Assembly (NCBI RefSeq): GCF_000374125.1
Contig: NZ_KB893625.1
Coordinates: 186,001-250,000 of the forward strand
Source of the DNA: Niabella aurantiaca DSM 17617
GTDB lineage: Bacteria; Bacteroidota; Bacteroidia; Chitinophagales; Chitinophagaceae
Direction: 5' to 3'
DNA: 64,000 nt
Shown here: piece by piece, positions 12,669 through 57,999 of the stretch
Numbering within the stretch: position 1 is the first letter of the stretch
Layout: every line of letters starts with the position of its first letter
Made by a program: the position numbers and the translations under genes
The notes under the pieces: generated by a model
What the model saw: only the letters and a program-made list of their open reading frames with translations
What the model was told of the DNA's origin: nothing
Database searches by the model: none

Positions 12669-12718
12669 TGAACGGGAAAGCAGGGGGCTTTATTTTCTGT
12701 TCCATTTAATCCAATCAT

Positions 12719-27204: not shown

Positions 27205-28089
27205 TTATTTGTTCTTAAAATGTTTGGGTGAGATCCCCATGATCTTTTTAAAGACCCGGGAAAAATGATACTGGTCATCATACCCCAGGCTGTACGAGAT
27301 GGTTTTGATGTTGTGCGCATTGTCCATCAGCATCTGGCAGGCTTTCTGGATCTTAAGCGTCGTGAATAAATGGATGGGGCTGGACTTGGCCTGCTTTTTA
27401 AACAGGGAAGAAAGATGCGACGATGACAACCCGACTGCGACGCTGATGTCATCCAACCTCAGCGGCTTGTCCAGGTTTTGCTTCATGAAATGGATGCACT
27501 GCTGGATGATATCATTCTCATTGGTGGACCGTTTGATCTGTGTATTTTGAAAAGAAGACAGGTAGGCATGCACACAGCTGCAGCTGTAAACGATATTGTC
27601 GGTATTGTTCATCAGCTCCAGGTGCTGGATGATGTCGTAAAAGATCAGCTGCCGCGATGTGCTTACTCCGGCGCTTGTGGGTGTTCCACCCTGGGCTTTC
27701 GTGAGCAGCTGGTAATAAAACGCGGCATCGTTGCCGGCAAAATGGAGCCAGTAAATGCTCCAGGGGTCCTTTTCATGTGCACCATAATGATGTGCCGCGC
27801 CGGCAGGGATGATGAAAAAATCATTGGGTTTTATTTCATACCGTTTATTGTTTAGAATATACCAGCCCCTTCCTTTGGTGCAATAGATCAGGATGTATTG
27901 TGCGCAGCCTTTCTTGCGCTCCCGCTCATGATCTGCCGCATTGGGGTAGTAGCCGATATCTGTTATATACAGGTTTTTACAAAAAATATGTTGTTCGCAG
28001 AATCTTAGTTTTGCCTGCGGCAGGATACAGGTCAACTGTCCTGCAAACCCTTCCATCTTTTTTTGAATATTTTCTGTGTTGAATGTCAT
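27205..28089 (-). CDS. AraC-family transcriptional regulator
   Basis: This 294-aa regulator has an N-terminal cupin-like sensor domain (about 20-140; ILIYCTKGRGWYILNNKRYEIKPNDFFIIPAGAAHHYGAHEKDPWSIYWLHFAG), which in this family binds a sugar. Its C-terminal AraC DNA-binding domain has two helix-turn-helix units (about 205-294; LDDISVAVGLSSSHLSSLFKKQ and IKTISYSLGYDDQYHFSRVFKKIMGISPKHFK). It is the only transcription factor in the window and sits between PUL A and PUL B. It is divergent from the first SusC of PUL B with 655 bp between them, so it is the natural candidate to control PUL B. A 16-bp palindrome starting 21 nt before its ATG suggests autoregulation. Confidence 0.93.
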   Translation of the reverse strand: MTFNTENIQKKMEGFAGQLTCILPQAKLRFCEQHIFCKNLYITDIGYYPNAADHERERKKGCAQYILIYCTKGRGWYILNNKRYEIKPNDFFIIPAGAAHHYGAHEKDPWSIYWLHFAGNDAAFYYQLLTKAQGGTPTSAGVSTSRQLIFYDIIQHLELMNNTDNIVYSCSCVHAYLSSFQNTQIKRSTNENDIIQQCIHFMKQNLDKPLRLDDISVAVGLSSSHLSSLFKKQAKSSPIHLFTTLKIQKACQMLMDNAHNIKTISYSLGYDDQYHFSRVFKKIMGISPKHFKNK

Positions 28090-28744
28090 GGAAGAACCGT
28101 TTTAACCGTGGGAACACCTGTTCCCGTTTGCTGTAAAAATATCTATATTTTTTATACTCGCTGCGGGATCGCAGTAAAAATAATCAGCAATTCCCGGGCT
28201 GTTGACAGGTCCTGATGCACAAAAGCGGATATGCGCTCCGGCCGGGAAGTGCATTTAAACCAGGGACTTTTGATAGAAAGAAGGCTAAAAGGCTTTTTCA
28301 CAGCGGTTTTGAAGGGATGTGCCGCTTATACCGGCGATATGCGGGAGGAAGCGGTTGACAGGCAGAGCATAAAAAAATCCATTATTTTCCATGGAATATC
28401 TATTTCCTTGGCCTCCATTTTATTGGAATTTTACATTCATGGATGAAAGAAGAGTGGAGGAGGAAAAAACAGGTCGTCTGCAACACTGCTGCTATGTAAT
28501 TGCTAACGAAGTTGCCGGAACCGGTTTTGCACTTTGATTTCATTTTTTGTCAGCGTATTAAAAGCGAGCAGACACATGTTTTTAATATAGGACAGGAACG
28601 GATTGTAATGTTTAGTATAAAAAATTGAATTCAGCTTGCTTTTAGATAACGGTTGGTCTTTAATCCAGATAAAACGTATGCTTCCGGCAGGCAGCAAAAA
28701 CAGGTCGGCGACGGCACCTGCTTATTATTATTAAAACGGCTATT
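28090..28744. other. Divergent regulatory region between AraC gene and SusC 2
   Basis: This 655-bp stretch has no supported gene; two short frames (28231-28446 plus, 28503-28697 minus) have no recognisable features. It should hold the promoters of both the AraC gene and the long PUL B transcript. I found no full TAnnTTTG promoter. A near match, TATTTTTA, reads toward AraC just beyond the palindrome at 28110. CTGCG-GGAT-CGCAG (near 28160-28177) is a second small inverted repeat. Confidence 0.45.
28110..28125. promoter_or_regulatory. Candidate operator palindrome upstream of AraC gene
   Basis: GGGAACA-CC-TGTTCCC is a perfect palindrome with 7-bp arms, 21-36 nt upstream of the AraC start codon. 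Its position over the leader or promoter fits autoregulation. AraC proteins usually bind direct rather than inverted repeats, so another regulator may use it. Confidence 0.45.
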
Positions 28745-31700
28745 ATGTTATTAAGATTGTTTTTTGCCTTCCTCCTGGTTGTTGCACTCGATGCTCAGGC
28801 TGTTAATACCCCAAGTGGTCTTACCGGCGCCTGGTATAAAAGGCAGCAGCCTGTTTCCGGTATCGTAACCGATCAGAAAACCGGGGCGCCGCTGACGGGC
28901 GTTACCGTTACCGTTAAAGGAACCGGAGTAGGAGCTTCATCGGATCAGGAAGGGCGTTATTCGTTGGCGGTGCCGGATGGGATCGGCAATGCGGTGCTTG
29001 TTTTTTCACTGGTGGGTTATCATACATTGGAGCAGCCGGTGAGGCAGCAATCGCAGATCAATGTGATGCTGATTGCTGAGCAAAAGGAAATGGACGAGGT
29101 AGTGGTAGTAGGATATGGAGAACAAAAGAAGCTGACGGTTACCGGAGCCATTGCAACCGTATCGGGAGCCGACCTCGTAAAAGCGCCCGTTGCCGGTATC
29201 AGCAATGCCCTGATCGGGATGGCCCCGGGCTTGCAGGCGGTTCAGACATCGGGGGAGTTTGGTAACGATAAAGCTACCATTTTTATCCGGGGTATGGCTA
29301 CCCTCAACGCTGGCGGAAGAAGCCCCCTGATCCTTATTGATGGGGTGCAGCGCGATACCTACAATAATCTCGACCCGAATGAGATCGAATCCATCAGTAT
29401 CTTAAAGGATGCCTCCTCAACGGCCGTTTACGGGGTACGCGGGGCAAACGGGGTGATCCTCATCACTACCAAACAGGGAAAAATGGGCCGGCCGCAGGTA
29501 AACGTTACGGCCAATGCCGCAGCTATACAACCCACCATTTTGCCCAAGTACCTCAATTCCTATGACTATGCCGTACTGCGCAACGAAGCCGAGCGGAACG
29601 GTGGTATTGCAGCAGATAAAGTAACCTTTACTGCTGAGGATCTCGAACTGTACAAATCAGGTGCAGATCCTGTTTTTCATCCAAGCAACGACTGGATCAA
29701 TGAACTGATCAAACCCTATTCCTTTCAGCAATCTTACAATGCCAATATCTCGGGTGGAACGGAAAAGGTACGTTATTATACTTCGTTGGGTTATTTCAAC
29801 CAGAGCGGGGGATACCAGCAACCGGAGCAGAGCCTGGGTTTTCCATATAAGCAGAAGTACGACAAGTACAATGTGCGGATGAACTTTGATTTTAAGCTGA
29901 CCCAGGACCTGCTGATACAGGTAAAACTGGGGAACCAGATCACCGATAATACCATCCCCAACGGAGGCGCCTGGGCAGCCTTTGACAAAGCGGCCAATCG
30001 TCCGCCGATGACCAGCCCGGTATTCATTGATGGTAAATACATTGAGCGGGTGATTGGTCTTCCGGGCGCTGTTCCCAACTTTAACCCCTGGGGAGATGCC
30101 GGACCAACCAGCGCCTCGGGTGCCTTTTTAACCGAACAATATTCCAGCACGCTCAATACCAACCTCCAGATCACCTATAAACTGGACCGTATTACCAAGG
30201 GATTAAGCGTACGGGCCATGGGCGCATACGACAGCTATTACCTGAAAAATAAATCCGAAAGCAAGAACTTTCCCAAGTGGACGGTTATGAAAGATGCCAG
30301 CGCACCCGAAGGATACCGTTTGTACCAGAGCGCCGATGATGGTCCGTTTACCGGTATCTCGGAAGCAGTGGGTGATGCCAACAAATGGCGGAAAGTGTAT
30401 ACGGAGGCCGCCATCGAATACAAACGCGGCTTTAGCGGGCACAATGTTTCTGGTTTGGTACTGGGTAACTTTTCCCGTGAGGTGCGCCCCAGCCTGCTGT
30501 ACAAGTTACCGCATGTGTACCTGGGGCTGGTATCAAGGGTAACCTATGATTATAAGAACCGTTACCTCACCGAGCTGAACATGGGGTATAACGGTTCGGA
30601 GAATTTTCCTGAAGGGAAGCGGTATGGCTTCTTTCCTTCCGTATCGCTCGGATGGGTACTTTCCAATGAACCCTTCTTCCCCAGGAACAGCTGGCTGAGC
30701 TTTGTAAAATTCCGGGGCTCTTACGGGGTGGTTGGAAACGATGAGATCGGTGGCCAGCGTTATCTGTATCTGGATCCGCCTTACAGCCTTAACAACGGGG
30801 GATACCAGGCAGTGATGTTCGGGAACCCGGGTGTGGATTTTGCCCGTTACAATGTATACAACGAAGGCGCCATTGGTAACCCGGATGTGACCTGGGAAAA
30901 GTCGAAAAAAATGGACATTGGTGCCGAGCTGAAATTCCTGGATGACCGCCTTTCTTTTAACGGGGACTATTTTGAAGAAAAAAGGGACAATATCCTCTGG
31001 TACCTGTCTACCGTTCCGGAACTGGTGGCCGCTTCTCTGCCGCCGGCCAATATCGGTAAGGTGAACAACCACGGTTATGAGCTGGAACTGGGCTATAACG
31101 GGCAGGCCAATAAGGTACAATACTGGGTAAAAGCCAGCTATGCTTTTGCCCGTAACGAGATCGTTTTCCAGGATGAACCGGATCGCAAATATGAATACCT
31201 GAAACGGACGGGCAAACCCATTCAGCAATATTTCGGGCTGACCTTTGATGGATTTTATAATTCCAAGGATGAGATTGATGATCCTGACCGGCCCAAATCC
31301 AAATGGGAGGGCGCCGGTCTGCAACCCGGTGATATGAAGTACAAAGACCTGGATGGCAACGGCATCATCGACGAGGATGATATGGGACCTGTCGGCCACT
31401 CCGACTGGCCGGAAGTAACCTACAGCATGTCTGGTGGTTTTTCCTGGAAAGGACTGGATCTGAGCATACTGGTACAGGGTACCGATAATGTATCGGCCAG
31501 CTTTGCATCGGCTGCCGCCTATCCTTTTGTGTCGTCCTGGGGTAGTGCCCAGCAATGGCATATGGAGCGCTGGACGCCGGAACGCTATGCAAACGGTGAA
31601 ACCATCTCATTTCCAAGGGTAGAGGTTTCGCCGGATAAACAGCACAACTACCAGCCATCCAGCTTCTGGGTACAGGATGCTTCTTACCTCCGTTTAAAAA

Positions 31701-31900
31701 ATCTGGAAGTAGGTTATCGCTTTACATCGCAGACGCTGAAGCGGATGGGTATGAGGAGCCTGCGTATTTATGTGAGCGGTAATAACCTGCTTACCAAAAG
31801 CCATTTCAAATACAGCAAGGACCCGGATGCGCGTGAGCTGTGGGGCCGTACCTATCCGCCCATGCGGGTGTTTAACGGAGGTATCAATCTTTCATTCTAG
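28745..31900 (+). CDS. SusC-like TonB-dependent outer-membrane transporter 2
   Basis: This 1051-aa transporter opens PUL B. After a signal peptide (MLLRLFFAFLLVVALDAQA) comes the carboxypeptidase-regulatory-like domain (VSGIVTDQKTGAPLTGVTVTVKGTGVGASSDQEGRYSL, about 38-115) and then the TonB-box-like DEVVVVGYGEQKK. The plug follows with PLILIDGVQRD and SILKDASSTAVYGVRGANGVILITTKQG, then the barrel, ending GGINLSF. A DLDGNGIIDEDD calcium-type loop lies near residue 870. SusD follows after 35 nt. It is the first of two SusCD pairs in this locus. The two SusC proteins are quite different in length and in the N-terminal domain, so they may import different oligosaccharides. Confidence 0.95.
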   Translation: MLLRLFFAFLLVVALDAQAVNTPSGLTGAWYKRQQPVSGIVTDQKTGAPLTGVTVTVKGTGVGASSDQEGRYSLAVPDGIGNAVLVFSLVGYHTLEQPVRQQSQINVMLIAEQKEMDEVVVVGYGEQKKLTVTGAIATVSGADLVKAPVAGISNALIGMAPGLQAVQTSGEFGNDKATIFIRGMATLNAGGRSPLILIDGVQRDTYNNLDPNEIESISILKDASSTAVYGVRGANGVILITTKQGKMGRPQVNVTANAAAIQPTILPKYLNSYDYAVLRNEAERNGGIAADKVTFTAEDLELYKSGADPVFHPSNDWINELIKPYSFQQSYNANISGGTEKVRYYTSLGYFNQSGGYQQPEQSLGFPYKQKYDKYNVRMNFDFKLTQDLLIQVKLGNQITDNTIPNGGAWAAFDKAANRPPMTSPVFIDGKYIERVIGLPGAVPNFNPWGDAGPTSASGAFLTEQYSSTLNTNLQITYKLDRITKGLSVRAMGAYDSYYLKNKSESKNFPKWTVMKDASAPEGYRLYQSADDGPFTGISEAVGDANKWRKVYTEAAIEYKRGFSGHNVSGLVLGNFSREVRPSLLYKLPHVYLGLVSRVTYDYKNRYLTELNMGYNGSENFPEGKRYGFFPSVSLGWVLSNEPFFPRNSWLSFVKFRGSYGVVGNDEIGGQRYLYLDPPYSLNNGGYQAVMFGNPGVDFARYNVYNEGAIGNPDVTWEKSKKMDIGAELKFLDDRLSFNGDYFEEKRDNILWYLSTVPELVAASLPPANIGKVNNHGYELELGYNGQANKVQYWVKASYAFARNEIVFQDEPDRKYEYLKRTGKPIQQYFGLTFDGFYNSKDEIDDPDRPKSKWEGAGLQPGDMKYKDLDGNGIIDEDDMGPVGHSDWPEVTYSMSGGFSWKGLDLSILVQGTDNVSASFASAAAYPFVSSWGSAQQWHMERWTPERYANGETISFPRVEVSPDKQHNYQPSSFWVQDASYLRLKNLEVGYRFTSQTLKRMGMRSLRIYVSGNNLLTKSHFKYSKDPDARELWGRTYPPMRVFNGGINLSF

Positions 31901-46056: not shown

Positions 46057-48066
46057 ATGCGCAGGATCAGTTTGAATATCGTTTTTATTTTATTGTTTGC
46101 CGTGGCGGCGCGCGCACAGGCAGATACCATACTGGACCGGTACAGCAGGTATTTGTTCCAAACCAGTGTATTGGCTGTAACGCATACAGGCAGCTGGATA
46201 CGTACCCTGCAACCGGATGGGCGCTGGCCGGATATTGATTATAACGACAAGGAACCGGCCGCATGGAAAGTACCGGACCACCTCAAACGGATTCGTGATA
46301 TGGCTTTGTGCTGGGGGGCTCCGGGATCACCGGACCGGAATAGTACCCGGCTGTTAAATGCAATGGAAAAAGCACTCGACCACTGGCTGTTGAGGCGGTA
46401 CCAGAGTACGAACTGGTGGCACAATGAAATCGGCATTCCCCGCTATATGCGGGACATCATCATCCTGCTCCGCAACCAATTGAATCCGCAACGTATGAAA
46501 GCCGCGCTGGAAGTGCTGAACCAGCTGCGGGTGCACGAAGATTATCTTGCCGGTAACCTGGTTTGGTGTGCCGACCTGGGTCTGCATTACGGCGCGCTTA
46601 CCGGTGATGAAAAGCTGGTGCAACGATGTCGTGCACTGATCGTAAAGGAGATCAAAACCGGAACAGGAGAGGGCATTCAGCCGGATTACAGCTTTCAGCA
46701 GCACGGCCACCGGCTGCAGATGTACCAGTATGGAAAAGCATTTTTGTTGGAGAGCCTGCGGGTGGCCTGGCAGTTAAAGGGCACCCCACTTGCATTTCCG
46801 GAAGATAAAGTAGCATTGCTTACCGGTATGATGCTGAACGGGTGGCAATGGATGGCCCGCGGTATTTATACCGTGCCGGGAACCATGGACCGGTCGGCCT
46901 CCCGTAAAGGTGAACTGGAAAGCGCAGATGTGCGGTCGTTGATCCCGTTTATGAAAGAGCTGCAACCTTCCAGGTCTGCGGACTGGGACCGGCTAAGTGC
47001 CGTTCAGAATGGGAAAGCGGGCTTGCAGGGCTTCCGCTATTATCCCTATTCAGATTTTGCTGCCTATCACCGGAAAGGGTTTAGCTTTTTTATAAAAACC
47101 ATTTCGACCCGTACGCTGGCTACGGAATCCATCAATCATGAAAACTTAAAAGGCCGCCTTCTCAATAGCGGTGATGCCTACCTGATCAGGGATGGAAAGG
47201 AGTATACGGATCTGATGCCGGTCTGGGACTGGTCGCACCTGCCCGGGGTCACTGCTTTTAAAGGTGCTTACCAGGCAAACCGCCAGGCTTTTGCCGGCAG
47301 CGCGGGCGATTCCTTTTGCGGCGTTACAGCCATGCACATCATCATTGCCGACACAACAGGAAAACAATCACTGGAGGCGCGTAAGTTCTGGGCCTGTTAT
47401 GGAGATAAGGTAATATGCCTGGCAGGCGATTTAAAAACAAATCAGGTTTCCGGTCCGGTTTACACGGCATTGGATCAGTGCCGCCTGCGGGGTCCGGTAA
47501 CGGTCAACAGTCCAAAGCAGGTACTGCGGAGCGGAACAACACGGCTGGATGAGGTACGCTGGATCCATCATGCAGGATTTGCCTATATCCCGCTGCAGCC
47601 GGCGGCTATGGAAGTACACGCGGAGCAAAGGTCCGGCACCTGGTATGCGATCAACAATGCGGAATCAAAAGATACCGTGCGTGCTGCTGCTTTTATGCCG
47701 GTGCTCTTGCAACAACAAGGCCAGGCCTTTGGCTATGTATTAAGCGCTGCGAGGACGGCTGCGGAAGCGGCAAGGCTGGCCTCAAAACCGGATTGGAAAG
47801 TGTTGCAGAATGATAAAGGTGTACAAGCCGTTCGTTTTTCAGACGGCGTGGTCATGGCGGCATTTTATACCGGAGGTAAACTGATGCTGGATCAGCGGCG
47901 CTACCTGCAAACGGATCAGCCTTGCATGATGGTTGTTAAAAAAGGGAAACTATATATCAGCGATCCGTTGCACAAAGGTGTAACGGTAACAGTAGCGATC
48001 AATGATAAAACGCAACGGCTGCAGTTGCCGGAGGATGGTACTACGGTTGCTGTCGCTTATGAATAG
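46057..48066 (+). CDS. Polysaccharide lyase family 8-type lyase (compact)
   Basis: This 669-aa exported protein (signal ending ARA) has the PL8 fold: an N-terminal alpha/alpha toroid followed by beta-sandwich domains. PL8 lyases cleave hyaluronate, chondroitin or xanthan next to a uronic acid by beta-elimination. Catalytic residues can be placed by spacing: Asn167 in LAGNLVW, His216 in SFQQHGHR and Tyr225 in MYQYG, with His-Tyr 9 residues apart and Asn-His 49 apart, close to the family's 50. Other markers are STNWWHNEIGIP, DRSASRKGELESADVR and ATESINHENLKGRLL. It is shorter than most members (roughly 700-1000 aa), which suggests a reduced C-terminal domain. It is the only lyase seen here and explains the two GH88 genes around it. 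Confidence 0.85.
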   Translation: MRRISLNIVFILLFAVAARAQADTILDRYSRYLFQTSVLAVTHTGSWIRTLQPDGRWPDIDYNDKEPAAWKVPDHLKRIRDMALCWGAPGSPDRNSTRLLNAMEKALDHWLLRRYQSTNWWHNEIGIPRYMRDIIILLRNQLNPQRMKAALEVLNQLRVHEDYLAGNLVWCADLGLHYGALTGDEKLVQRCRALIVKEIKTGTGEGIQPDYSFQQHGHRLQMYQYGKAFLLESLRVAWQLKGTPLAFPEDKVALLTGMMLNGWQWMARGIYTVPGTMDRSASRKGELESADVRSLIPFMKELQPSRSADWDRLSAVQNGKAGLQGFRYYPYSDFAAYHRKGFSFFIKTISTRTLATESINHENLKGRLLNSGDAYLIRDGKEYTDLMPVWDWSHLPGVTAFKGAYQANRQAFAGSAGDSFCGVTAMHIIIADTTGKQSLEARKFWACYGDKVICLAGDLKTNQVSGPVYTALDQCRLRGPVTVNSPKQVLRSGTTRLDEVRWIHHAGFAYIPLQPAAMEVHAEQRSGTWYAINNAESKDTVRAAAFMPVLLQQQGQAFGYVLSAARTAAEAARLASKPDWKVLQNDKGVQAVRFSDGVVMAAFYTGGKLMLDQRRYLQTDQPCMMVVKKGKLYISDPLHKGVTVTVAINDKTQRLQLPEDGTTVAVAYE

Positions 48067-48082
48067 ATTTAAAAACAGAAAG

Positions 48083-48793
48083 ATGAAAAACAGGATGACC
48101 CGTTTATTACTATTTGTTCTGGCATTGCACTGGGCAATGGCCGGTATGGCGCAGGCAGATCCGCAAACCTACCTGGAGGAGCTGAAGACCGAATTGAAAA
48201 AGAAATGGCCCGCGAACCGGACCATTAACCTGGTATTTCACGGGCATTCTGTGCCCAGCGGCTATTTTCAAACACCTGCGGTACATACGCTGGAAGCCTA
48301 CCCGCACCAGGTATTGCAGCAATTGAAGGAGCTGTATCCCAATGCCGTTATCAATGTGATCACCACATCGATCGGTGGCGAAAATTCCGTGCAGGGGCAA
48401 AAGCGGTTTGAGAAGGATGTGCTGCCGCACCACCCGGATGTATTGTTTATCGATTATGCCCTCAACGACCGGGCCATTGGCCTGGAAGCATCCCGGATTG
48501 CCATGGAGAAGATGATCCGGAAGGCATTGAAGAAGCATATAAAGATCATCCTGATGACGCCTTCTCCGGATCTTACGGTGGATATTCTTAAGCAGGATAA
48601 TATCCTGAGCCAATTCAGTCAGCAGCTGATACAATTGGCTGCAAAATATAAGATCGGTCTTGCAGACAGCTATGCTGCTTTTTATGATGAGGCCCGGAGT
48701 GGAAAACAGCTACGCGATTATATGGCGCAAAGCAATCATCCCAATGGAAAGGGACACCGGCTGATCGCAGACCGGATTATGCAATGGTTTTAA
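48083..48793 (+). CDS. SGNH/GDSL-type hydrolase with altered block V
   Basis: From ATG 48083 (17 nt after the lyase stop) this is a 236-aa exported protein (signal LLLFVLALHWAMAGMAQA). SGNH blocks: block I VFHGHSVPSG with the presumed nucleophile Ser, block II Gly in TTSIGGENS, block III DYALNDRAIG with Asn. Block V reads AQSNHPNGKGH: the His is present but the position three residues before it, normally the catalytic Asp, is Gln. The enzyme may still work as a Ser-His dyad or use another acid. Members deacetylate sugars, which fits removal of acyl groups from the lyase substrate. It lies between the PL8 and the second GH88. In-frame starts further upstream overlap the lyase gene and lack a signal. 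Confidence 0.75.
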   Translation: MKNRMTRLLLFVLALHWAMAGMAQADPQTYLEELKTELKKKWPANRTINLVFHGHSVPSGYFQTPAVHTLEAYPHQVLQQLKELYPNAVINVITTSIGGENSVQGQKRFEKDVLPHHPDVLFIDYALNDRAIGLEASRIAMEKMIRKALKKHIKIILMTPSPDLTVDILKQDNILSQFSQQLIQLAAKYKIGLADSYAAFYDEARSGKQLRDYMAQSNHPNGKGHRLIADRIMQWF

Positions 48794-48865
48794 AATGGTA
48801 AGAAATCAAATGTCGGGCCGAGGTTTGTGTCCTCATGGTCGCCTGAGGGGGCTAAATGAAATAAT

Positions 48866-50077
48866 ATGAATAAAATAAGGTTGCGCCGGGTTTGTTGGTT
48901 GCTTGCCTGTTGTTTTTTGTTGAACACATTAAACGCACAGCATCTAAAGACCCGGAAAAAACTACGACGGGAGGTAGTGCGGTGTATGAATGAATCGGCT
49001 CAGCAATACAAGGTAATGCTGCAACGGCTGGATGCCGCCCGTTTTCCCGTAACCTGGTATGCTAAAGATGATAAACTGGTCACCAGCGGTTCCGAGCCCT
49101 GGGTGGGCGGCTTTTACCCCGGTGCATTGTTGTATCTTTTTGAGTACACGAAGGACAGCGCTTTATACAAGGAAGCTTTGCAAAAAATGAATGTGCTGGA
49201 AAAGGAGCAATACAATAAAACAACACACGACCTGGGCTTTATGATGTACTGTTCTTTCGGTAATGCGGAAAGGCTGGCGCCAAAGCCGGAGTATAAAGAT
49301 ATCCTGATCAACAGCGCACGGTCTCTGGCAAGCCGGTTTAGTGAAAAAGTAGGCTGCATCCGTTCCTGGGATTCGGATACCGGCCGGTTTATGGTGATCA
49401 TTGATAACATGATGAACCTGGAACTGTTGTTTGAAGCTACAAAGATGACGGGCGATTCTTCTTTTTACCGAATTGCAGTGACCCATGCCAGTACCACCAT
49501 GCAACATCATTACCGTCCGGATTACAGTTCGCATCACCTGGTGATCTACAACCCAAAGGACGGCAGCGTATTAAAAAAGCAAACGGTTCAGGGTGCTGCC
49601 GACAGCTCTGCATGGGCGCGGGGACAGGCCTGGGGTTTGTATGGCTATACCATGACCTATCGCGAAACCCGTGACCCGAAATATCTGGAACAGGCCCGGC
49701 ACATTGCGCGGTTCCTGTTAACGCATCCACGTTTGCCGGCGGACAAGATACCTTACTGGGATTTTGATGCACCCGGGATCCCCAATGCACCAAGGGATGT
49801 TTCTGCAGGTGCGGTGATCTGCTCGGCCCTGCTGGAGCTGGCTACCTATACATCCGGAAAAGAGCGCAAAAGCTATATGACGGCGGCAGAAAAAATGTTG
49901 CAAAGTCTGTGCTCCCCGGCCTACCGTGCCGCTATCGGTGAAAATGGTGGTTTTCTTTTGAAACATGGTGTGGGTAACTATCCGAAAAATGCGGATATCG
50001 ACGTGCCGCTGATTTATGCCGATTATTATTATGCAGAGGCATTGCAACGGTATTGGAAGCTGGGAGGAGGAAGATGA
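48866..50077 (+). CDS. GH88-type unsaturated glucuronyl hydrolase, paralogue 2
   Basis: This 403-aa exported GH88 protein (signal VCWLLACCFLLNTLNAQ) matches the first paralogue along its full length: WVGGFYPGALLYLFE, THDLGFMMYCSFG with Asp122, VIIDNMMNLELLFEA with Asp180, DSSAWARGQAWGLYGYTMTYRET, IPYWDFDAPGIPNAPRDVSAGA and DVPLIYADYYYAEALQRYWK. All expected catalytic residues are kept. It lacks the extra HFDP-type loop of paralogue 1 (the NVGQAGFDPPWNFDP insert at its DF-N segment), so the two may accept different acceptor sugars. It follows the SGNH gene and ends the PL8-SGNH-GH88 group; a 569-nt gap with its own promoter follows. Confidence 0.93.
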   Translation: MNKIRLRRVCWLLACCFLLNTLNAQHLKTRKKLRREVVRCMNESAQQYKVMLQRLDAARFPVTWYAKDDKLVTSGSEPWVGGFYPGALLYLFEYTKDSALYKEALQKMNVLEKEQYNKTTHDLGFMMYCSFGNAERLAPKPEYKDILINSARSLASRFSEKVGCIRSWDSDTGRFMVIIDNMMNLELLFEATKMTGDSSFYRIAVTHASTTMQHHYRPDYSSHHLVIYNPKDGSVLKKQTVQGAADSSAWARGQAWGLYGYTMTYRETRDPKYLEQARHIARFLLTHPRLPADKIPYWDFDAPGIPNAPRDVSAGAVICSALLELATYTSGKERKSYMTAAEKMLQSLCSPAYRAAIGENGGFLLKHGVGNYPKNADIDVPLIYADYYYAEALQRYWKLGGGR

Positions 50078-50122
50078 TATTGGTCGTGCCTACGGCACTC
50101 TGGTCTCTTAGCATGTTTTAGT

Positions 50123-50301
50123 CTCCGGAATAAATTCCGGAGTCATATAACAGCAGGCCGATGGCCTTTGGTGGTGTGTTGGAGAAATGTTCACGACGGT
50201 GTGTAAATACAGTGAAGAGGCATCACCTCGTTTTAGTTTTTTAACAACGAACTTTAGTTCGTTGTTAACGGGCTGTAGTACAGACCGAGAGCCATAGGCT
50301 C
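50123..50301. repeat. Cluster of short palindromes after GH88 paralogue 2
   Basis: Within 180 bp there are at least five inverted repeats: CTCCGGAAT-AA-ATTCCGGAG (50123-50142), AGGCC-GAT-GGCCT (50155-50167), GAGG-CATCA-CCTC (50217-50229), TTAACAACGAACT-TT-AGTTCGTTGTTAA (50241-50268) and GAGCC-ATA-GGCTC (50289-50301). The fourth has perfect 13-bp arms and a 2-nt centre. The density and the A-C-T-n-n-A-G-T centre resemble REP-like palindromic elements that some bacteria mobilise with RAYT (Y1) transposases. No such transposase is in the window. Confidence 0.6.
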
Positions 50302-50433
50302 GGATCATGAGTTTAATGCAAACTCACTGTTCTACCAGTCGATGTGATCCTCAAAACAAATAATGACCTGGGCTTATGGTACCTAATAGCAAATAGGTAA
50401 GGGTCAGAAACTTAAGCCAGTGCGGAGAACAAA

Positions 50434-50627
50434 CCGCCCTGTATCGAGGTGTCGACGCGTGCGACGCAAGACTGCCGCCATGAGCACTGCAGCCGGGACA
50501 ATAAAAAGCCCGCCGCTGCCAACGCTCTTTAACATCAAAAGATCTATCTTTTTCCGAAGATTAGCCATTGAAAGTGCCACAGAACGGTGCTATGTTTGAA
50601 CACTAAATGCGAAGGATGCTTGCCGGA
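50434..50627 (+). repeat. Duplicated leader, copy 1 (before GH2 paralogue 2)
   Basis: This 194-bp noncoding block is repeated at 53516-53719. Aligned by hand, the left 74 nt differ at about 9 positions and the later 45-nt block (CATCA...TGC) at about 4, separated by a variable stretch. The block after that includes the shared promoter -7 box and ends at GATGCTTGCCGGA (copy 2: TATGCTTGCCGGA). It lies directly after the palindrome cluster and ends 19 nt before the GH2 ATG. Confidence 0.8.
50568..50598 (+). promoter_or_regulatory. Promoter for GH2 paralogue 2
   Basis: TTG at 50568-50570 and TATGTTTG at 50591-50598, 20 nt apart, form a full Bacteroidota promoter match. The same two boxes with the same spacing occur in the second leader copy, which supports selection on them. 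The predicted start lies about 40 nt before the GH2 ATG at 50647. Confidence 0.7.
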
Positions 50628-50646
50628 CAGGAAGCCTGTATTTATA

Positions 50647-53469
50647 ATGATTGATATTTTAAAAACACGTATAGCCGGAACCCTGTTGTGGATATTGCTA
50701 AGTATTTATGGCAATGCGCAGTCATCTGTGCGGGAGCGTATTGCCCTGCGGGGTAGCTGGGGTTTTCGTATGGATCCGCAAAACGCGGGAATGGCACAAC
50801 GTTGGATGAATAGTCTGTTTGCAGAAACAGTGACCCTGCCCGGTTCCATGGCGCAGTGGCATAAGGGCGTCCGGAATACCCAACCCACCACACAACATTT
50901 AAATGCCCCCTGGTCCTATACAGGTAAGGCCTGGTACCAGAAATGCATCCACATACCGGTATCCTGGAACGGAAGAACAATAACGCTGAACCTGGAGCGT
51001 ACAAAAGCTACATCCGTCTGGCTGGACGGAGTACTGGTGGGCAAAAGCCGGCTGCTATCTGCCATGCAGGTGATTGAGCTTGGCCACCCGGAACCGGGAT
51101 TGCATACGCTAACGATCTGTGTAGACAATACGCCTTCACTCTTTGCTGTGGGCGGCTCACATGCCCTGAGCGCGCACACACAAACCAACTGGAACGGTAT
51201 CATCGGCAATATCTTCATGGAAAGCCGGAACAGTTTTCAATTAGCGCGGGTGCGGGTAAAACCGAATGCAGATCAACGGCTGTTCCGGTTCAGCATCCAG
51301 TTAAGAGACGAACAAAAAAATCATAAGCCAGCCCGTATCAAAATAGAAGCATCCGCATGGAATACGCCGAAACCGCATCGGGCAAAACCGCAGTGGTATA
51401 ATCTCGCTGAACAAACAACAGATCGTATGGTGATACTGGATTATCCGTTAGGTCCGGATGCCCTGTTCTGGGATGAATACCGGCCGGCACTCTACCGCAT
51501 TACGGTAACACTGTATGATAAGAATAGCATTGCAGACCGGAAGACGTTAAATGCAGGGCTTCGAACGTTCCGTCCGCAAGGCACACAATTCAGCATCAAT
51601 AACCGGATCACGTTTTTGCGTGGAAAAAATGAAAGCTGTGTGTTTCCTTTAACAGGATTTCCGCCCACTGCTACAGCAGAGTGGCAACGCCTGTACCGGA
51701 TCGCAAAACAATACGGCATCAATCACTACCGTTTTCATTCCTACACGCCGCCGGAGGCGGCCTTTGAGGCCGCAGATATTGAGGGCATCTATATACAGGC
51801 AGAGTTACCCAACTGGTCCAATTTCAACAGTAAGGATAGTTTTCAGAACCGCTTTCAATATGAAGAAGGCCGGGCCATACTGGATGCTTATGGAAATCAT
51901 CCATCGTTTGTGATGTTATCGCTGGGCAATGAACTGGCAGGGGATGAAACAGTGCCGGATAAAATGATAAAAGAATTACGGGCTTACGATGATAACCGCC
52001 GGCTGTATACGATTGGCACAAATGCATTTTATAACGACCCGCATCCGGGGCCGGGGGATGATTTTTGGGTAACGATGCGGACAGGTAAGGAAACCCCTGA
52101 TGGCCGGTTTGATGTGCGGGGCGGTTTTGCCACAACGGAAGACGCCGGTAATGGAATTTTAAACACCATGCGCCCCAATACACGGCGCAATTACAATGAA
52201 GCCATTAAACCGTATCACCTGCCGGTGGTAGGACATGAGATCGGACAGTACCAGCTCTATCCGGATTATACAGAGCTCCCGCAATACACCGGAGTGCTTC
52301 AGCCAGCAAATCTCCGGATCTTCAGGGAGCGTTTGCAAAAGGCGGGCATGGGCGACCAGGCTGCTGATTTCTTTAAAGCATCGGGTATGCTGGCCGTACA
52401 ATTGTACCGCCGGGAAATTGAGATGGCGCTGGGAACACCCGGTTTTGGGGGCTTTCAACTATTGGACCTGCAGGATTTTCCCGGTCAGGGCACCGCGCTG
52501 GTGGGTCTGCTGAATGCTTTTATGCGTAGCAAAGGGCTCATTACCCCGGAAGCGTTCCGGCAGTTTTGTAACGATCGAACGCTACAGGTGCTGATGGATA
52601 AATATACCTGGACCAACGAAGAGCAGTTCACAGCAGATATCCGGTTAGTGAATTACCGTCCGGAAAACCTTTCAGGGAAAATCGTCAGCTGGAACCTGAC
52701 CGGACCGAAAGGCCAGGTGTTGGGAAGCGGGAAACTGCGGATCAAAATGGATGCAAGTGGGATCATCCCGGTCGGGAACATCCGTCTTTCACTGGGGGAT
52801 ATTACAACAGCCAAAAAGCTGATTTTGGAGGCGGAACTCGAAGGTACGGCTTACCGCACCAGTTATCCCGTTTGGGTATACCCAGCCAAACAGGAGCTGA
52901 CCGTTCCTGCCGGGCTAATGGTTTCAAAAAAGCTGGATGACCAAATGTTAAGCGCATTACAGGCAGGGGCCAAAGTGTTGCTGTTGCCGGATCATGACAG
53001 GATAGAAGGAAAATCAGTGGGTGGTCAGTTCATTACTGAATTCTGGAACTGGAAAGTATTTAAAGAAGCCGCCGAAAAACAGCAACGGCCGCAATCGGCC
53101 GGTACGCTGGGGATACTTACCCGGCCGGAATTGCCGCTGTTTGACCATTTTCCCACGGAATATTATGCCAGCTGGCAATGGTGGAGCATTATCAAAAATG
53201 CGCGCCCGCTGATACTGGATGCCCTTCCGGCAGGCTATAAGCCGCTGGTACAGGTGATCGATAATATCGACCGCAACCATAAGCTGGGACTGATCTTTGA
53301 ATGCAGTGTGGGAAGGGGGAAGCTGCTGGTATGCATGGCACCATTGGATCAGCTGAAGGATGATCCCGCTGCAAGACAGTTGTATTACAGCATGCTGCAG
53401 TATATGGCATCTGATCGCTTCCACCCGGTAACGGTATTAAATACCCGGCAATTAAAAGAGATTTTGTAA
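50647..53469 (+). CDS. GH2-family glycoside hydrolase, paralogue 2
   Basis: This 940-aa enzyme starts at ATG 50647 with a signal peptide (GTLLWILLSIYGNAQ); the in-frame GTG at 50587 is rejected because a promoter -7 box lies inside that extension. Domains follow paralogue 1: jelly roll (LRGSWGFRMDPQN...TNWNGIIGNIFME), Ig-like, TIM barrel with acid/base Glu429 in LGNELAG and nucleophile Glu531 in GHEIGQYQLYPD, the FQLLDLQDFPGQGTALVGLLNAF motif, and the shared C-terminal HFPTEYYASWQWWSI domain. It resembles paralogue 3 more than paralogue 1 in organisation: both have the duplicated leader and promoter. It is probably a periplasmic exo-enzyme. The sugar specificity is unknown. Confidence 0.9.
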   Translation: MIDILKTRIAGTLLWILLSIYGNAQSSVRERIALRGSWGFRMDPQNAGMAQRWMNSLFAETVTLPGSMAQWHKGVRNTQPTTQHLNAPWSYTGKAWYQKCIHIPVSWNGRTITLNLERTKATSVWLDGVLVGKSRLLSAMQVIELGHPEPGLHTLTICVDNTPSLFAVGGSHALSAHTQTNWNGIIGNIFMESRNSFQLARVRVKPNADQRLFRFSIQLRDEQKNHKPARIKIEASAWNTPKPHRAKPQWYNLAEQTTDRMVILDYPLGPDALFWDEYRPALYRITVTLYDKNSIADRKTLNAGLRTFRPQGTQFSINNRITFLRGKNESCVFPLTGFPPTATAEWQRLYRIAKQYGINHYRFHSYTPPEAAFEAADIEGIYIQAELPNWSNFNSKDSFQNRFQYEEGRAILDAYGNHPSFVMLSLGNELAGDETVPDKMIKELRAYDDNRRLYTIGTNAFYNDPHPGPGDDFWVTMRTGKETPDGRFDVRGGFATTEDAGNGILNTMRPNTRRNYNEAIKPYHLPVVGHEIGQYQLYPDYTELPQYTGVLQPANLRIFRERLQKAGMGDQAADFFKASGMLAVQLYRREIEMALGTPGFGGFQLLDLQDFPGQGTALVGLLNAFMRSKGLITPEAFRQFCNDRTLQVLMDKYTWTNEEQFTADIRLVNYRPENLSGKIVSWNLTGPKGQVLGSGKLRIKMDASGIIPVGNIRLSLGDITTAKKLILEAELEGTAYRTSYPVWVYPAKQELTVPAGLMVSKKLDDQMLSALQAGAKVLLLPDHDRIEGKSVGGQFITEFWNWKVFKEAAEKQQRPQSAGTLGILTRPELPLFDHFPTEYYASWQWWSIIKNARPLILDALPAGYKPLVQVIDNIDRNHKLGLIFECSVGRGKLLVCMAPLDQLKDDPAARQLYYSMLQYMASDRFHPVTVLNTRQLKEIL

Positions 53470-53515
53470 TGAATGGATACTCCCAGTCCCACCAGTCGCC
53501 CTGTCCCGCAACCAG

Positions 53516-53719
53516 CCGCCCTGTATTGAGGTGCCAAAGAGTGCGACGCAAGACCGCCGCCATAAGCATTGCAGCCGGGGCAATAAAAAAACGCAGGTAG
53601 CTCAACCAGCCCGACCGCACTCAGCATCAGAAAATCTATCTTTTTCCGAAGATTAGCTATTGAAAATGCAGCAGGTCAGTGCTATGTTTGATCATAAATT
53701 TGCGGGTATGCTTGCCGGA
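53516..53719 (+). repeat. Duplicated leader, copy 2 (before GH2 paralogue 3)
   Basis: This is the second copy of the leader at 50434-50627. It fills most of the 293-bp gap between the two GH2 genes, which otherwise holds nothing recognisable, and ends 43 nt before the next GH2 ATG. The middle stretch differs in length and sequence from copy 1; the two outer blocks are nearly the same. Confidence 0.8.
53660..53690 (+). promoter_or_regulatory. Promoter for GH2 paralogue 3
   Basis: TTG at 53660-53662 and TATGTTTG at 53683-53690 are 20 nt apart, exactly as in the first leader copy. The predicted start leaves a leader of roughly 65 nt before ATG 53763. Confidence 0.7.
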
Positions 53720-53762
53720 GTCGGCCCAGGGCCCCGTACAGTTAAAGAAACTTTGTAAAGCG

Positions 53763-56543
53763 ATGATAAAACGAATGAATATGTTATTACCAACGACCAT
53801 GCGAACATTGTTACTTGGCTTTTTTCTTGTTTGTGCTGCCCGGACATACGCCCAACAGGAGCGCTCCCTGGCGGGTACCTGGAAACTGCGTCTGGATAAG
53901 GAAGACCGCGGTATAAAAGAAGGGTGGTTCCGTAAGAACGAAGGGCAAGCCATCACACTGCCCGGAACCCTGGATGATGCAGGTATCGGCGAAAAGATAA
54001 AGGTGGATACCAATGTGATGAATAAGGAAGTAATGATCCGGCTGACCCGCAAGCATACCTACACCGGGCCGGCCTGGTACAGTAAGCAGGTGGTGATCCC
54101 TTCCGGCTGGACGGGCAAAGTGATCCGGCTGTACCTGGAGCGGGTGATCTGGAATACAAGGGTTTGGGTAGATGGTAAGGAAGCCGGAACAGATGAGAGC
54201 CTGAGCACACCACATGTGTTTGAGCTGAGCAAATACCTGACACCCGGGATACACCTGCTGACGATCCGTATTGATAACCGGAAACAGCATGATATCTCTG
54301 TCAGGGATATGGCGCATGCGTATACGGATGGAACACAGATCATATGGAACGGTGTTATCGGCGCGATAAAATTAACGGCCCGCAACCGGCTGGCGCTGGG
54401 GCTGGTACAAACCTATCCGGATGTTGCGCAAAAAAAGGCGGGATTAAAAATAGGGCTGGAGAACCATAGCCCCCGTGCTCAAAAAGCAGTATTGCAGGCA
54501 AAAATATATTTAGGCGCCAACCGGCTGGTGGCTACCCGCAGGGTACCGGTTACGGTTGCCCCTGGAGCATCGGATGAAGAAATTGACTTGTCTTTGGGCC
54601 GGAATGCGGCGCTTTGGGATGAATTTGATCCGAATATATACCGCGTTGAGATAGCCATACAAACGACCGGCGGGCAACAGCTGGACAAAAGAGAAACCCG
54701 TTTTGGATTAAGAGCGATGACCAGCGATCAGCAGACCCTGCGCATCAATGGTCGCCCGGTATTTTTAAGGGGCACGCTGGAATGCAATATCTTTCCACTG
54801 ACCGGGCATCCGCCGATGACCCGCGAAGGCTGGCTTAAGGTATTCCGTACCGCTAAAAGCTATGGACTGAACCACCTGCGTTTTCATTCCTGGTGCCCGC
54901 CGGAAGCGGCTTTTGAAGTGGCCGATTCCATGGGCTTTTACCTGCAGGTGGAGCTGCCGTTCTGGAACCTGCATGCCGGCGAGGATGCAGGCACCAACCG
55001 GTTCCTGGAGATGGAAGCGGAACGGATCAGCGAAACTTATGGCAATCATCCTTCTTTCTGTCTTTGGTCATTGGGCAATGAGCTGCAGGGCGATTTTAAC
55101 TGGCTGCACGGGTTGCTGGGAGGATTGAAGCAGAAAGATAACCGGCACCTCTACACGACCACTACGTTTACATTTCAAAAAGAGCATGGCCGCTGGCCGG
55201 AGCCGGGAGACGATTTTTTCATTACCCAGTACACAAAAAAAGGTTGGGTAAGAGGGCAGGGGGTGTTTAATGATCATGCACCGGATTTTTCTGCGGATTA
55301 TGCAGTTTCGGTTGAAGGGCTGCCCGTGCCGCTGATCACACATGAGATCGGGCAATATTCGGTGTACCCCAATCTGAAAGAGATCCGTAAATACACCGGC
55401 GTGCTGGACCCGCTGAATTTTAAGGCGGTCCGGAATGATCTCCGGAAAAAGCACCTGTTGCACCTGGCCGATTCATTTACGCTTGCCAGCGGTATTTTTG
55501 CCGCACGGCTGTATAAAGAAGAGATGGAGCGGGCATTGAAAACAAAAGGGATCAGTGGCTATCAGTTGCTGGACCTGCACGATTTCCCCGGTCAGGGTAC
55601 CGCGTTGGTGGGCATCCTGGATGCGTTCTGGGACAGCAAACAGCTGGTGCGCCCCGAAGAGCACCGGATGTACAGTTCGGAGGTGGTACCCTTGCTCCGG
55701 TTCCGTAAGGCGGTTTATACAAGCGACGAAATATTTTCCGTAACAGCAGCGGTGGCCAATTTTAGCGCCGGCACCCTGAAGCAGGTGTCGCCGCAGCTGA
55801 TCATTAAAGACCGTTCGGGGAAGATCCTGTTCAAAAAAGAATGGCAGACGGTCAGCCTGCCGGTGGGGAACAACAGCCAGGTCGGAGCAGCGGAGTTTGC
55901 GTTAAGTACGGTAAAAAAAGCGGAAATGCTTACCGTGGAACTGTTGCTCAGGGGAACCGCGTTTAAAAACGAATGGCGGATCTGGGTGTACCCTCCTTCA
56001 GTTGAAGAAGCTGCCGATAATGTATTTTTTACCCGCTCATTCACAGAAGCTCTGCAGTTGCTGGAGAAGGGCGGGAACGTATTGTTCAATCCGGATACCG
56101 CAGCACTGAAAGGGGTGAATGGCCGCTTTGCGCCGGTGTTCTGGAGCCCGGTACATTTTCCGGATCAGCCCGGTACCATGGGGATCCTGTGCAACCCGGC
56201 ACATCCTGCGCTGAAGCAGTTTCCTACGGCATTTCACAGCGACTGGCAGTGGTGGGACCTGATCACTTCTTCGAAAACGATGATCATAGATTCGCTGCCT
56301 GCTATGAAACCGGTAGTGCGCGTGATCGATAATTTTTTTAAAAACCGTAAGATGGCCAATGTAATTGAGGCGCGTGTAGGAAAGGGAAAGCTGCTGATGA
56401 CCTCTATCAATATTGCCGACGGGCTGGAACAGCGGCCGGCTGCGCGCCAGCTGCGTTACAGCCTGCTGCAGTACATAAAAGGGGCGCAGTTCGTGCCTCA
56501 AACAAGGCTGACACCAGAACAGTTGCTGTTGCTGAAAAAGTAA
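53763..56543 (+). CDS. GH2-family glycoside hydrolase, paralogue 3
   Basis: This 926-aa enzyme starts at ATG 53763 (other in-frame ATGs at 53775 and 53781); the GTG at 53679 lies on the promoter. A signal peptide (TLLLGFFLVCAARTYAQ) is followed by the GH2 jelly roll (LAGTWKLRLDKED...IWNGVIGAIKL), the Ig-like domain, and the barrel with Glu440 in LGNELQG (acid/base) and Glu528 in THEIGQYSVYPN (nucleophile). The SGYQLLDLHDFPGQGTALVGILDAFWDS and FPTAFHSDWQWWDLITSS segments are shared with the other two paralogues. All catalytic acids are intact. It is 293 nt downstream of paralogue 2 and has its own promoter copy. It likely acts on a different linkage from its paralogues, but this cannot be read. 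Confidence 0.9.
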   Translation: MIKRMNMLLPTTMRTLLLGFFLVCAARTYAQQERSLAGTWKLRLDKEDRGIKEGWFRKNEGQAITLPGTLDDAGIGEKIKVDTNVMNKEVMIRLTRKHTYTGPAWYSKQVVIPSGWTGKVIRLYLERVIWNTRVWVDGKEAGTDESLSTPHVFELSKYLTPGIHLLTIRIDNRKQHDISVRDMAHAYTDGTQIIWNGVIGAIKLTARNRLALGLVQTYPDVAQKKAGLKIGLENHSPRAQKAVLQAKIYLGANRLVATRRVPVTVAPGASDEEIDLSLGRNAALWDEFDPNIYRVEIAIQTTGGQQLDKRETRFGLRAMTSDQQTLRINGRPVFLRGTLECNIFPLTGHPPMTREGWLKVFRTAKSYGLNHLRFHSWCPPEAAFEVADSMGFYLQVELPFWNLHAGEDAGTNRFLEMEAERISETYGNHPSFCLWSLGNELQGDFNWLHGLLGGLKQKDNRHLYTTTTFTFQKEHGRWPEPGDDFFITQYTKKGWVRGQGVFNDHAPDFSADYAVSVEGLPVPLITHEIGQYSVYPNLKEIRKYTGVLDPLNFKAVRNDLRKKHLLHLADSFTLASGIFAARLYKEEMERALKTKGISGYQLLDLHDFPGQGTALVGILDAFWDSKQLVRPEEHRMYSSEVVPLLRFRKAVYTSDEIFSVTAAVANFSAGTLKQVSPQLIIKDRSGKILFKKEWQTVSLPVGNNSQVGAAEFALSTVKKAEMLTVELLLRGTAFKNEWRIWVYPPSVEEAADNVFFTRSFTEALQLLEKGGNVLFNPDTAALKGVNGRFAPVFWSPVHFPDQPGTMGILCNPAHPALKQFPTAFHSDWQWWDLITSSKTMIIDSLPAMKPVVRVIDNFFKNRKMANVIEARVGKGKLLMTSINIADGLEQRPAARQLRYSLLQYIKGAQFVPQTRLTPEQLLLLKK

Positions 56544-56661
56544 GCGGGATGTCTGCCTGTCTACTCAGCAATATCATAAGATCGTCCTTTGTTTTCATAA
56601 GGATATCCATTCTATTTCCCTTTTTATGTGCGCATCTTTGTGTTCCTAAAATCGCTTCAGT

Positions 56662-57999
56662 ATGAAAAGTCAGTATCCCTTTAATACATCCTATATCATT
56701 GGCATCTCATTTATTTCCGCGCTGGGCGGTTATCTTTTTGGGTTCGACTTTGCGGTGATCGCGGGGGCGCTTCCTTTTTTAAAAGAGCAGTTCGGCTTTA
56801 ACGAGGTACAGGAAGGATTTGCCACGGCATCACTGGCATTGGGATGTATTGCGGGGTGTTTGCTGGCAGGCCGGATCTCCGACCGCTGGGGGCGCCGGAG
56901 AGGACTGATGCTGGCCGCGGCCGTATTTTTTCTTTCCTCGCTGGCAATGGCCTTCTCGCACAACAGCGCATTATTCATTGCCGCCCGTTTTGCTGCCGGA
57001 ATAGGAGTGGGAATGGCTTCTGTTCTGTCGCCGATGTATATTGCGGAAGTAGCACCCACTGATATGCGTGGCCGCATGGTAGCCATCAACCAGCTGACGA
57101 TCGTGATCGGGATCTTTATAACCAACCTGGTCAACTATAGTTTGCGCAATGAAGGCGCAGATGCATGGCGCTGGATGGTAGGATTGGGCGCTGTGCCCTC
57201 CGCGCTCTTCCTGATAGGTGTATGCTGGTTACCAGAAAGTCCACGCTGGCTTGCCAAGGCCGGCAATCTGCTGCTCGCAGAAAAGATATTGAAGAAGATC
57301 GGTGGCGGGGACTACGCCACGCATACATTGGAGGCGATCCGGAAATCGGTCGCCGGCGATACGGCGGTGCGTTATAAAGATGTGTTCGGACGTGCCGTTT
57401 TTCCGGTGGTATTGATCGGCATCGGGCTGGCAGTATTCCAGCAGCTTTGCGGAATCAATGTCGTATTTAATTATACAGCAAATATTTTTGAAAGCGTAGG
57501 TTTTAGCCAGGACGATCAGCTGAAGCAAACGGTATTTATCGGCCTGGTCAATATGGTTTGTACCCTGGTGGCTATGTGGCAGGTAGATAAGCTGGGACGG
57601 AAGCCCCTAATGCTGCTGGGCGCCATCGGGCTCACCCTTCTGTATCTGGTCAGCGCCACATTGCTGAAACAAAGATCCGCTGCTGCTTCCTGGTCGTTAC
57701 TGGCCGCCATCGGGCTGTACGCTATGACACTGGCGCCGGTTACCTGGGTGCTCATTTCGGAAATATTTCCCAACAAGGTAAGGGGCGCAGCTACCGCTGT
57801 TGCCGTGCTGGCCCTGTGGGCATCCTATGCGGTACTGACTTTTACCTTTCCCATACTGGCAAAAAACTTAGGAACCTACACGCCGTTCTATATCTATGCG
57901 GGCGTTTGTGTCCTCGGCTTTTTGTTCGTGAAATTCCGGGTAAAGGAAACCAGGGGAAAATCGCTGGAAGAAATGGACAAGGTTTTTTCGGGGCATTGA
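56662..57999 (+). CDS. Sugar porter family MFS transporter (sugar-proton symporter)
   Basis: This 445-aa inner-membrane protein has twelve predicted hydrophobic segments and no signal peptide. Sugar porter signatures are clear: GGYLFGFDFAVIAGALPF in helix 1, GRISDRWGRRRGLM between helices 2 and 3, PESPRWLAKAGN at the end of helix 6, QQLCGINVVFNYTANIFE in helix 7, DKLGRKPLML between helices 8 and 9, and PNKVRGAATAVAVLALW in helix 10. XylE/GalP-type members import a monosaccharide with a proton. It comes 119 nt after the last GH2 gene, so it would take up the sugar released from PUL B substrate. The exact hexose or pentose cannot be told. Confidence 0.93.
   Translation: MKSQYPFNTSYIIGISFISALGGYLFGFDFAVIAGALPFLKEQFGFNEVQEGFATASLALGCIAGCLLAGRISDRWGRRRGLMLAAAVFFLSSLAMAFSHNSALFIAARFAAGIGVGMASVLSPMYIAEVAPTDMRGRMVAINQLTIVIGIFITNLVNYSLRNEGADAWRWMVGLGAVPSALFLIGVCWLPESPRWLAKAGNLLLAEKILKKIGGGDYATHTLEAIRKSVAGDTAVRYKDVFGRAVFPVVLIGIGLAVFQQLCGINVVFNYTANIFESVGFSQDDQLKQTVFIGLVNMVCTLVAMWQVDKLGRKPLMLLGAIGLTLLYLVSATLLKQRSAAASWSLLAAIGLYAMTLAPVTWVLISEIFPNKVRGAATAVAVLALWASYAVLTFTFPILAKNLGTYTPFYIYAGVCVLGFLFVKFRVKETRGKSLEEMDKVFSGH

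Follow-up and report, generated by a model that had tools for sequence, protein, structure and literature searches.

At the araI1-I2 operator, AraC carries out class II activation from direct half-sites that lie 21 bp apart and overlap the upstream element of the promoter, and AraC-type regulators of polysaccharide utilization loci have genes that adjoin a SusC gene. A tested parallel is the XylRA motif of Vibrio, in which two direct AT-rich repeats precede several operons (PMC12125979). Here we analyze two similar blocks of about 200 bp that precede two glycoside hydrolase family 2 (GH2) genes, GH2a and GH2b, in a 64,000-nucleotide stretch of the Niabella aurantiaca DSM 17617 genome (contig NZ_KB893625.1, positions 186,001 to 250,000; hereafter the window, with positions counted from its first letter). 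As in the AraC systems, direct half-sites 21 bp apart overlap a promoter upstream element and the regulator gene adjoins a SusC gene, but the site sequence differs from the araI1-I2 type, the promoter is of the Bacteroidota type, and the genes form a cluster of polysaccharide lyase family 8 (PL8), GH88-type, sulfatase and GH2 genes. XylRA carries a ligand domain of the LacI type (PMC12125979), whereas that of the regulator here is of the cupin type. The similarity of the two blocks is real and is mostly explained: to judge from sequence comparison, each probably combines a promoter and its AraC-type operator with an interspersed repeat that lies in front and is unrelated to them (Table 1).

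Table 1. Features of the two upstream blocks and of the predicted regulon, in window coordinates
Feature	Position	Strand	Basis
AraC-family regulator, proposed binder of the tandem sites	27205..28089	-	Pfam AraC_binding (cupin) 5.5e-16, HTH_18 5e-19
Tandem site, divergent AraC/SusC intergenic region	28376..28404	+	38.2 bits, relatives' matrix; 20.3 bits, earlier matrix with GH2-type sites and the G018 site
SusC-like TonB-dependent receptor, proposed target	28745..31900	+	Pfam Plug, TonB_dep_Rec
Distal module a, degenerate repeat copy	50428..50507	+	core 50456-50469 CGCGTGCGACGCAA, 2 mismatches to AGWGTGCGACGCAA; 69/80 identical to b
AraC-type tandem site a	50541..50569	+	42.3 bits, relatives' matrix; overlaps -33 TTG
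Predicted GH2a promoter: TTG (50568-50570), 20 nt, TATGTTTG (50591-50598)	50568..50598	+	sequence; aligned in orthologues
GH2a (glycoside hydrolase family 2)	50647..53469	+	Pfam Glyco_hydro_2_N, _2, _2_C
Distal module b, repeat copy	53510..53589	+	core 53538-53551 AGAGTGCGACGCAA, exact 14-mer
AraC-type tandem site b	53633..53661	+	45.1 bits, relatives' matrix; overlaps -33 TTG
Predicted GH2b promoter: TTG (53660-53662), 20 nt, TATGTTTG (53683-53690)	53660..53690	+	sequence; aligned in orthologues
GH2b (glycoside hydrolase family 2)	53763..56543	+	Pfam Glyco_hydro_2_N, _2, _2_C
Tandem site before MFS sugar transporter	56583..56611	+	28.2 bits, relatives' matrix
MFS sugar transporter, proposed target	56662..57999	+	Pfam Sugar_tr 1.9e-113

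Over 212 nt, positions 50428-50627 and 53510-53719 are 78% identical (E=1e-40 in a search of the window, 7e-39 in a search of the whole genome). Their left parts agree at 69/80 positions and their right parts at 76/95 of a gapless core stretch, with a variable middle containing a 10-nt indel between them; these figures are near the hand counts of an earlier sequence-only reading, which had also pointed to the TTG-20 nt-TATGTTTG arrangement that both blocks carry. That reading held the blocks to be better conserved than the genes they precede, and this is borne out by pairwise identity, the coding regions of GH2a and GH2b sharing 50.1% of 2682 codon-aligned nucleotides (39.9% at third positions, with 38.9% identity of the proteins). 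The best 96-nt coding window reaches 72.9%, and none of 940 windows is at least 80% identical. For both genes the likely start codons are the ATGs at 50647 and 53763 rather than the earlier GTGs given by the open reading frame (ORF) finder. No such upstream block is found before the third GH2 gene of the cluster, GH2c (41940-44720).

What had been taken for a single 200-bp leader resolves instead into two unrelated modules, a proximal one of ~95 bp and a distal one of ~80 bp. When the whole genome was searched with the GH2b block, matches outside the two blocks fell mostly at query positions 33-85, in the left part. This part also occurs at loci L090, L109 and L112, which have no match to proteins of the window. 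A lack of other copies would have counted against the sequence-only reading, but the distal part does have further copies, both in this genome and in relatives. The right part precedes GH2 orthologues in the relatives G005, G006, G009, G010, G011 and G015. Both modules stand in the same order in the two blocks of this genome and at GH2b of G015; the exact distal core is missing next to the GH2 sites of G009, G010, G011 and G015-GH2a, is degenerate in G006-GH2a, and is split by a hairpin insertion in G005-GH2b. The distal repeat lies near many other genes, and several GH2 promoters in relatives manage without a copy. Of the functions that the sequence-only reading had offered, an operator suits the proximal half and a dispersed repeat the distal half, while regulatory RNA or an attenuator and recent homogenization fare poorly, as considered below.

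The proximal module carries a 29-bp tandem site with a 21-bp period, whose downstream half overlaps the -33 TTG at both GH2 genes. Read as a direct repeat, the half-sites match at 65% of positions at offset 21, compared with 11-36% at offsets 8-20. The layout of TTG, 20 nt and TATGTTTG is the Bacteroidota promoter form. A matrix built early on from eight GH2-type sites of the window and relatives, one G009 site and one G018 site gave a single additional window match above 6 bits, in the divergent AraC/SusC region, and none in five mononucleotide shuffles. A later matrix of 14 sites from relatives, partly located using models that contained window sites, gave four strong sites in the window (28.2-45.1 bits); the next match scored 12.1 bits, and the maximum in 20 dinucleotide-like shuffles was 17.3. 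That next match, a weak AraC-type site inside the shuffle range, lies where a sulfatase gene begins (12712-12740). In the whole 5.93-Mb genome, a loose pattern allowing up to two mismatches has three matches, all within this cluster, and its control has none.

AraC orthologues of 81-87% identity are present in 6/16 same-genus relatives (G005, G006, G010, G011, G014 and G015), and sites lie next to six of the seven orthologues when that of N. aurantiaca is included: 38-40 bits in the latter and in G005, G006, G011 and G015, and 19.3 and 14.7 bits in G014. GH2 promoters in relatives have sites too, and so does the region before the MFS transporter, where the position corresponds to that in the window: G010, G011 and G014 score 19.3-20.7 bits there, and G009 has a weak site of 15.7 bits. 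G018, a member of another genus, has a site flanked on one side by an AraC homologue of 38% identity and on the other by a SusC-like gene. AraC homologues that are more distant were examined at 23 loci, of which four have sites of 17.8-21.9 bits and two have weak ones.

The conservation of the site, its restriction to a single cluster, its position, its occurrence next to AraC genes and the distribution of the repeat are computed results; from the sequence we infer regulator binding, activation, a ligand and whatever function the repeat may have. The AraC-family regulator of the window most likely binds the tandem site as two monomers on one helix face, and once bound it would activate transcription from the overlapped promoter by class II activation. 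The adjoining SusC gene and the MFS transporter would be further targets of this regulator, and in the presence of its sugar ligand the receptor, transporter and GH2 enzymes would be expected to rise together. The proximal halves would then be alike through selection keeping site and promoter rather than through recent copying. Besides PL8 lyase, GH88-type hydrolase and sulfatase genes, the cluster has GH30 and GH127 genes and SusC/D pairs. With this gene content, the substrate is likely to be an acidic, perhaps sulfated, polysaccharide. Close to the window end, positions 62247-62993 encode an IstB-like ATPase of an IS21-type element.

Several observations weigh against an AraC-type operator shared by these genes. 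Read inverted, the half-sites still agree at 48% of positions. TTGAAA is retained in 8/10 aligned leaders and TATGTTTG in 7/10, with G009 and G018 deviating in both, and no clear promoter was assigned at the 28376 and 56583 sites. With the relatives' matrix, neither GH2c (41940) nor the GH30 gene of the same cluster has a strong site. The loose pattern has 44 matches across 59 genomes compared with 23 for its backward control; two-mismatch matches therefore mean little without context and were counted only with it. G010 has an AraC orthologue of 81% identity and yet no site in that AraC locus, its sites lying elsewhere (GH2b, 42.7 bits; MFS, 19.3 bits). In G009, the GH2a site is present and the closest AraC homologue is only 40% identical, and both G009 and G011 have the two GH2 genes with a strong site before GH2a only. 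At 17 of the 23 distant-homologue loci nothing above 9 bits was found, and other loci, which total 410,941 bp, hold eight sites above that score. The GH2 loci of Pedobacter sp. BS3 (L001) and Chitinophaga cymbidii (L002), which are the two closest named matches and the 2 of 36 GH2 loci that were scanned, have no site above 8 bits.

The operator also does not explain a conserved box, ATGCTTGCC, in the predicted 5' untranslated region (window 50616-50654 and 53708-53758). It is common to 7/10 GH2 leaders and in six of them opens a short ORF of 12-16 codons, whose end falls close to the GH2 start codon or overlaps it; in G011 the box shares the reading frame of the gene.

The distal module belongs to an abundant repeat family. 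Its 14-mer core, AGWGTGCGACGCAA, has 16 exact copies and three with one mismatch in the N. aurantiaca genome (control, 1), and among 99 genomes it is present in 41/60 of the same bacterial family and in 0/39 others, with 0 for the backward control. Copy numbers reach 621 in G040, 253 in G039, 143 in G020 and 115 in G002. In 318 kb of G039 and G040, 86/92 copies are intergenic, although a simple ORF caller leaves only 12% of bases as noncoding. In the same stretches, the core lies 30-40 nt from the end of a convergent right-hand gene in 23/51 cases and 38-49 nt from the start of a codirectional gene in 12/33, and the A-rich end of the repeat often adjoins a gene. Close neighbors are arranged head-to-head in 9/9 cases within 1 kb in G020, counted over the first 100 of its 143 places, and in 11/11 cases within 500 bp in G039 and G040 (20/20 over three genomes). 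Seven G020 pairs less than 250 bp apart have predicted folds of -64 to -101 kcal/mol, values that carry no shuffle control.

The repeat is largely fixed in place and is not freely hopping, since 10/19 copies in N. aurantiaca have a same-place counterpart in G015. This count comes from 11 copies that matched a G015 copy over more than 300 bp, of which L068 was dropped owing to scattered repeat matches. Between such counterparts, identity is 87% in the middle and tail and 65% in the left flank. Conservation of the repeat extends in part beyond the core, over ~60-80 nt.

Further features of the repeat were recorded. A replichore polarity in G020 was considered and rejected, the strands being mixed (70 forward, 73 reverse). 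On G020 contig C1, copy density peaks at 2.0-2.5 Mb, which holds 28 of the first 100 placed, of 143. This may be toward the origin, which GC skew sampled over 20 stretches of 12 kb would put near 2.8-3.0 Mb, although too coarsely for a claim. Hairpins of type TCCCGAAGTTTCGGGA or TCCCGCTTTCAGCGGGA occur after, inside or beside the core, as if inserted (L087 of G005, L165, L167, L042 and L039), and a sister core (L204 at 2704; L041 and L169), with the sequence GTGAGTGACACAAC or one close to it, has flanks resembling those of the repeat, as a second dialect would. The 16-mer is found in 30 viral stretches, several with repeat-like flanks and others without, and one copy passes a strict tail filter; from the rough size of the collection, about as many matches would presumably arise by chance. 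Searches of open-license PMC papers returned no description of this repeat.

As to what the repeat might be, the core may be a site that selection preserves for binding by a protein acting across the chromosome, such as a factor of the nucleoid, of DNA uptake or of termination. This fits the invariant core best, and we regard it as plausible while stopping short of calling it probable. The 11-mer GTGCGACGCAA is retained despite varying flanks in 43/44 (G040) and 35/38 (G039) copies within two mismatches of the 16-mer (reversed control, 0), although the choice of copies by their core inflates this conservation. The core also has an odd dyad, TGCG-A-CGCA, and the intergenic placement, the set distances to gene ends and starts and the positions common to G015 point the same way. 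Against this, 19/60 family members have no copies, and the range of 0-621 is odd for an essential site. DNA uptake sequences of Neisseria and Haemophilus likewise have many copies, a near-invariant core and head-to-head pairs at gene ends; they differ from the repeat here, whose copies are almost all intergenic and have the partly conserved context described above. More tentatively, GTGCGACGCAA might be a family-wide chromosomal site that is selected at gene ends, in numbers that reach several hundred in one genome, and is read by a protein in nucleoid organization, DNA uptake or transcript ending; searches of open-license PMC papers gave no description of such a site for Bacteroidota.

The nearest known kind is a repetitive extragenic palindromic (REP) element mobilized by a REP-associated tyrosine transposase (RAYT). 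That the distal repeat is a REP or REPIN-type element moved by a Y1 (RAYT/IS200-like) transposase seems to us somewhat unlikely. REP, bacterial interspersed mosaic elements (BIME) and REPIN are, like the repeat here, short, mostly intergenic, high-copy and found in inverted pairs (PMC3733652, PMC6006769), and the head-to-head pairs described above are able to fold into long hairpins. One Y1 gene of N. aurantiaca lies ~0.35 kb from a copy, and Y1 is also present at one G015 locus. However, REP stems are given in PMC3733652 as 6-13 bp (GTAG superfamily) or 8-9 bp (CGTC), as opposed to a 3-bp stem in the single-copy consensus here, which was derived from 164 copies and forms no stable hairpin. 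Nor is a Y1 gene a consistent neighbor: in genomes other than G039 and G040, the two with the most copies, the main core is found in 2/32 Y1 loci of ~3.3 kb (three have the sister core) and in 2/20 Y1 stretches of 6-10 kb, two of which re-read earlier Y1 genes. The number of Y1 genes does not track that of copies (G020, 143 copies and 2 Y1; G012, 2 copies and 8 Y1), and the positions shared with G015 also argue against mobilization. A small insertion sequence or miniature inverted-repeat transposable element was considered between the wide G020 pairs (631 and 679 bp), where the ORFs of 131 and 138 amino acids were not recognized as transposases and no family search was made.

Recent duplication or gene conversion homogenizing the two promoters is very unlikely. 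The blocks are much more alike than their genes, and in a tree of the proximal module the a and b copies are not separated, as homogenization would have it. However, the proximal ~110 nt are 94% (a) and 97% (b) identical to their G015 orthologues and 76% identical to each other within the genome; because orthologue identity exceeds within-genome identity, recent homogenization is unsupported. For distal module b, identity to copies from other loci in the genus (83-88%) is about the same as to module a (86%). An older promoter duplication, predating the genus split, is possible.

That the whole block forms one functional unit for both GH2 genes, such as an RNA leader, attenuator or riboswitch-like element, can practically be set aside: the module order kept in both blocks and G015-GH2b and the shared box ATGCTTGCC are offset by the presence of the distal module at other loci, by the absence of its exact core next to the conserved proximal module in G009, G010, G011 and G015-GH2a, and by the position of most of the block ahead of the predicted promoter, with the conserved tandem site preceding and overlapping the -33 element. 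As the larger share of each block is upstream of the predicted promoter, it would therefore be absent from the transcript. Rfam gave no match at E up to 1 in window 48000-57000 and, in 117.5 kb of repeat-rich relatives, one tRNA at the gathering score and nothing else. The covariance expected of a structured RNA did not appear, as RNAalifold and covariation analysis of 164 aligned repeat copies yielded a consensus fold of 3 bp at -0.4 kcal/mol and no covariation.

An odd repeat before two genes thus becomes a predicted regulon, in which one AraC-type protein and four predicted sites are joined with a receptor, a transporter and two GH2 enzymes. In front of the predicted GH2 operators lies a repeat family that is abundant and, among the 99 genomes, limited to one bacterial family, with a core that stays stable while its surroundings drift. 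A stable core with drifting flanks would fit a protein reading the core, and the repeat family merits separate study.

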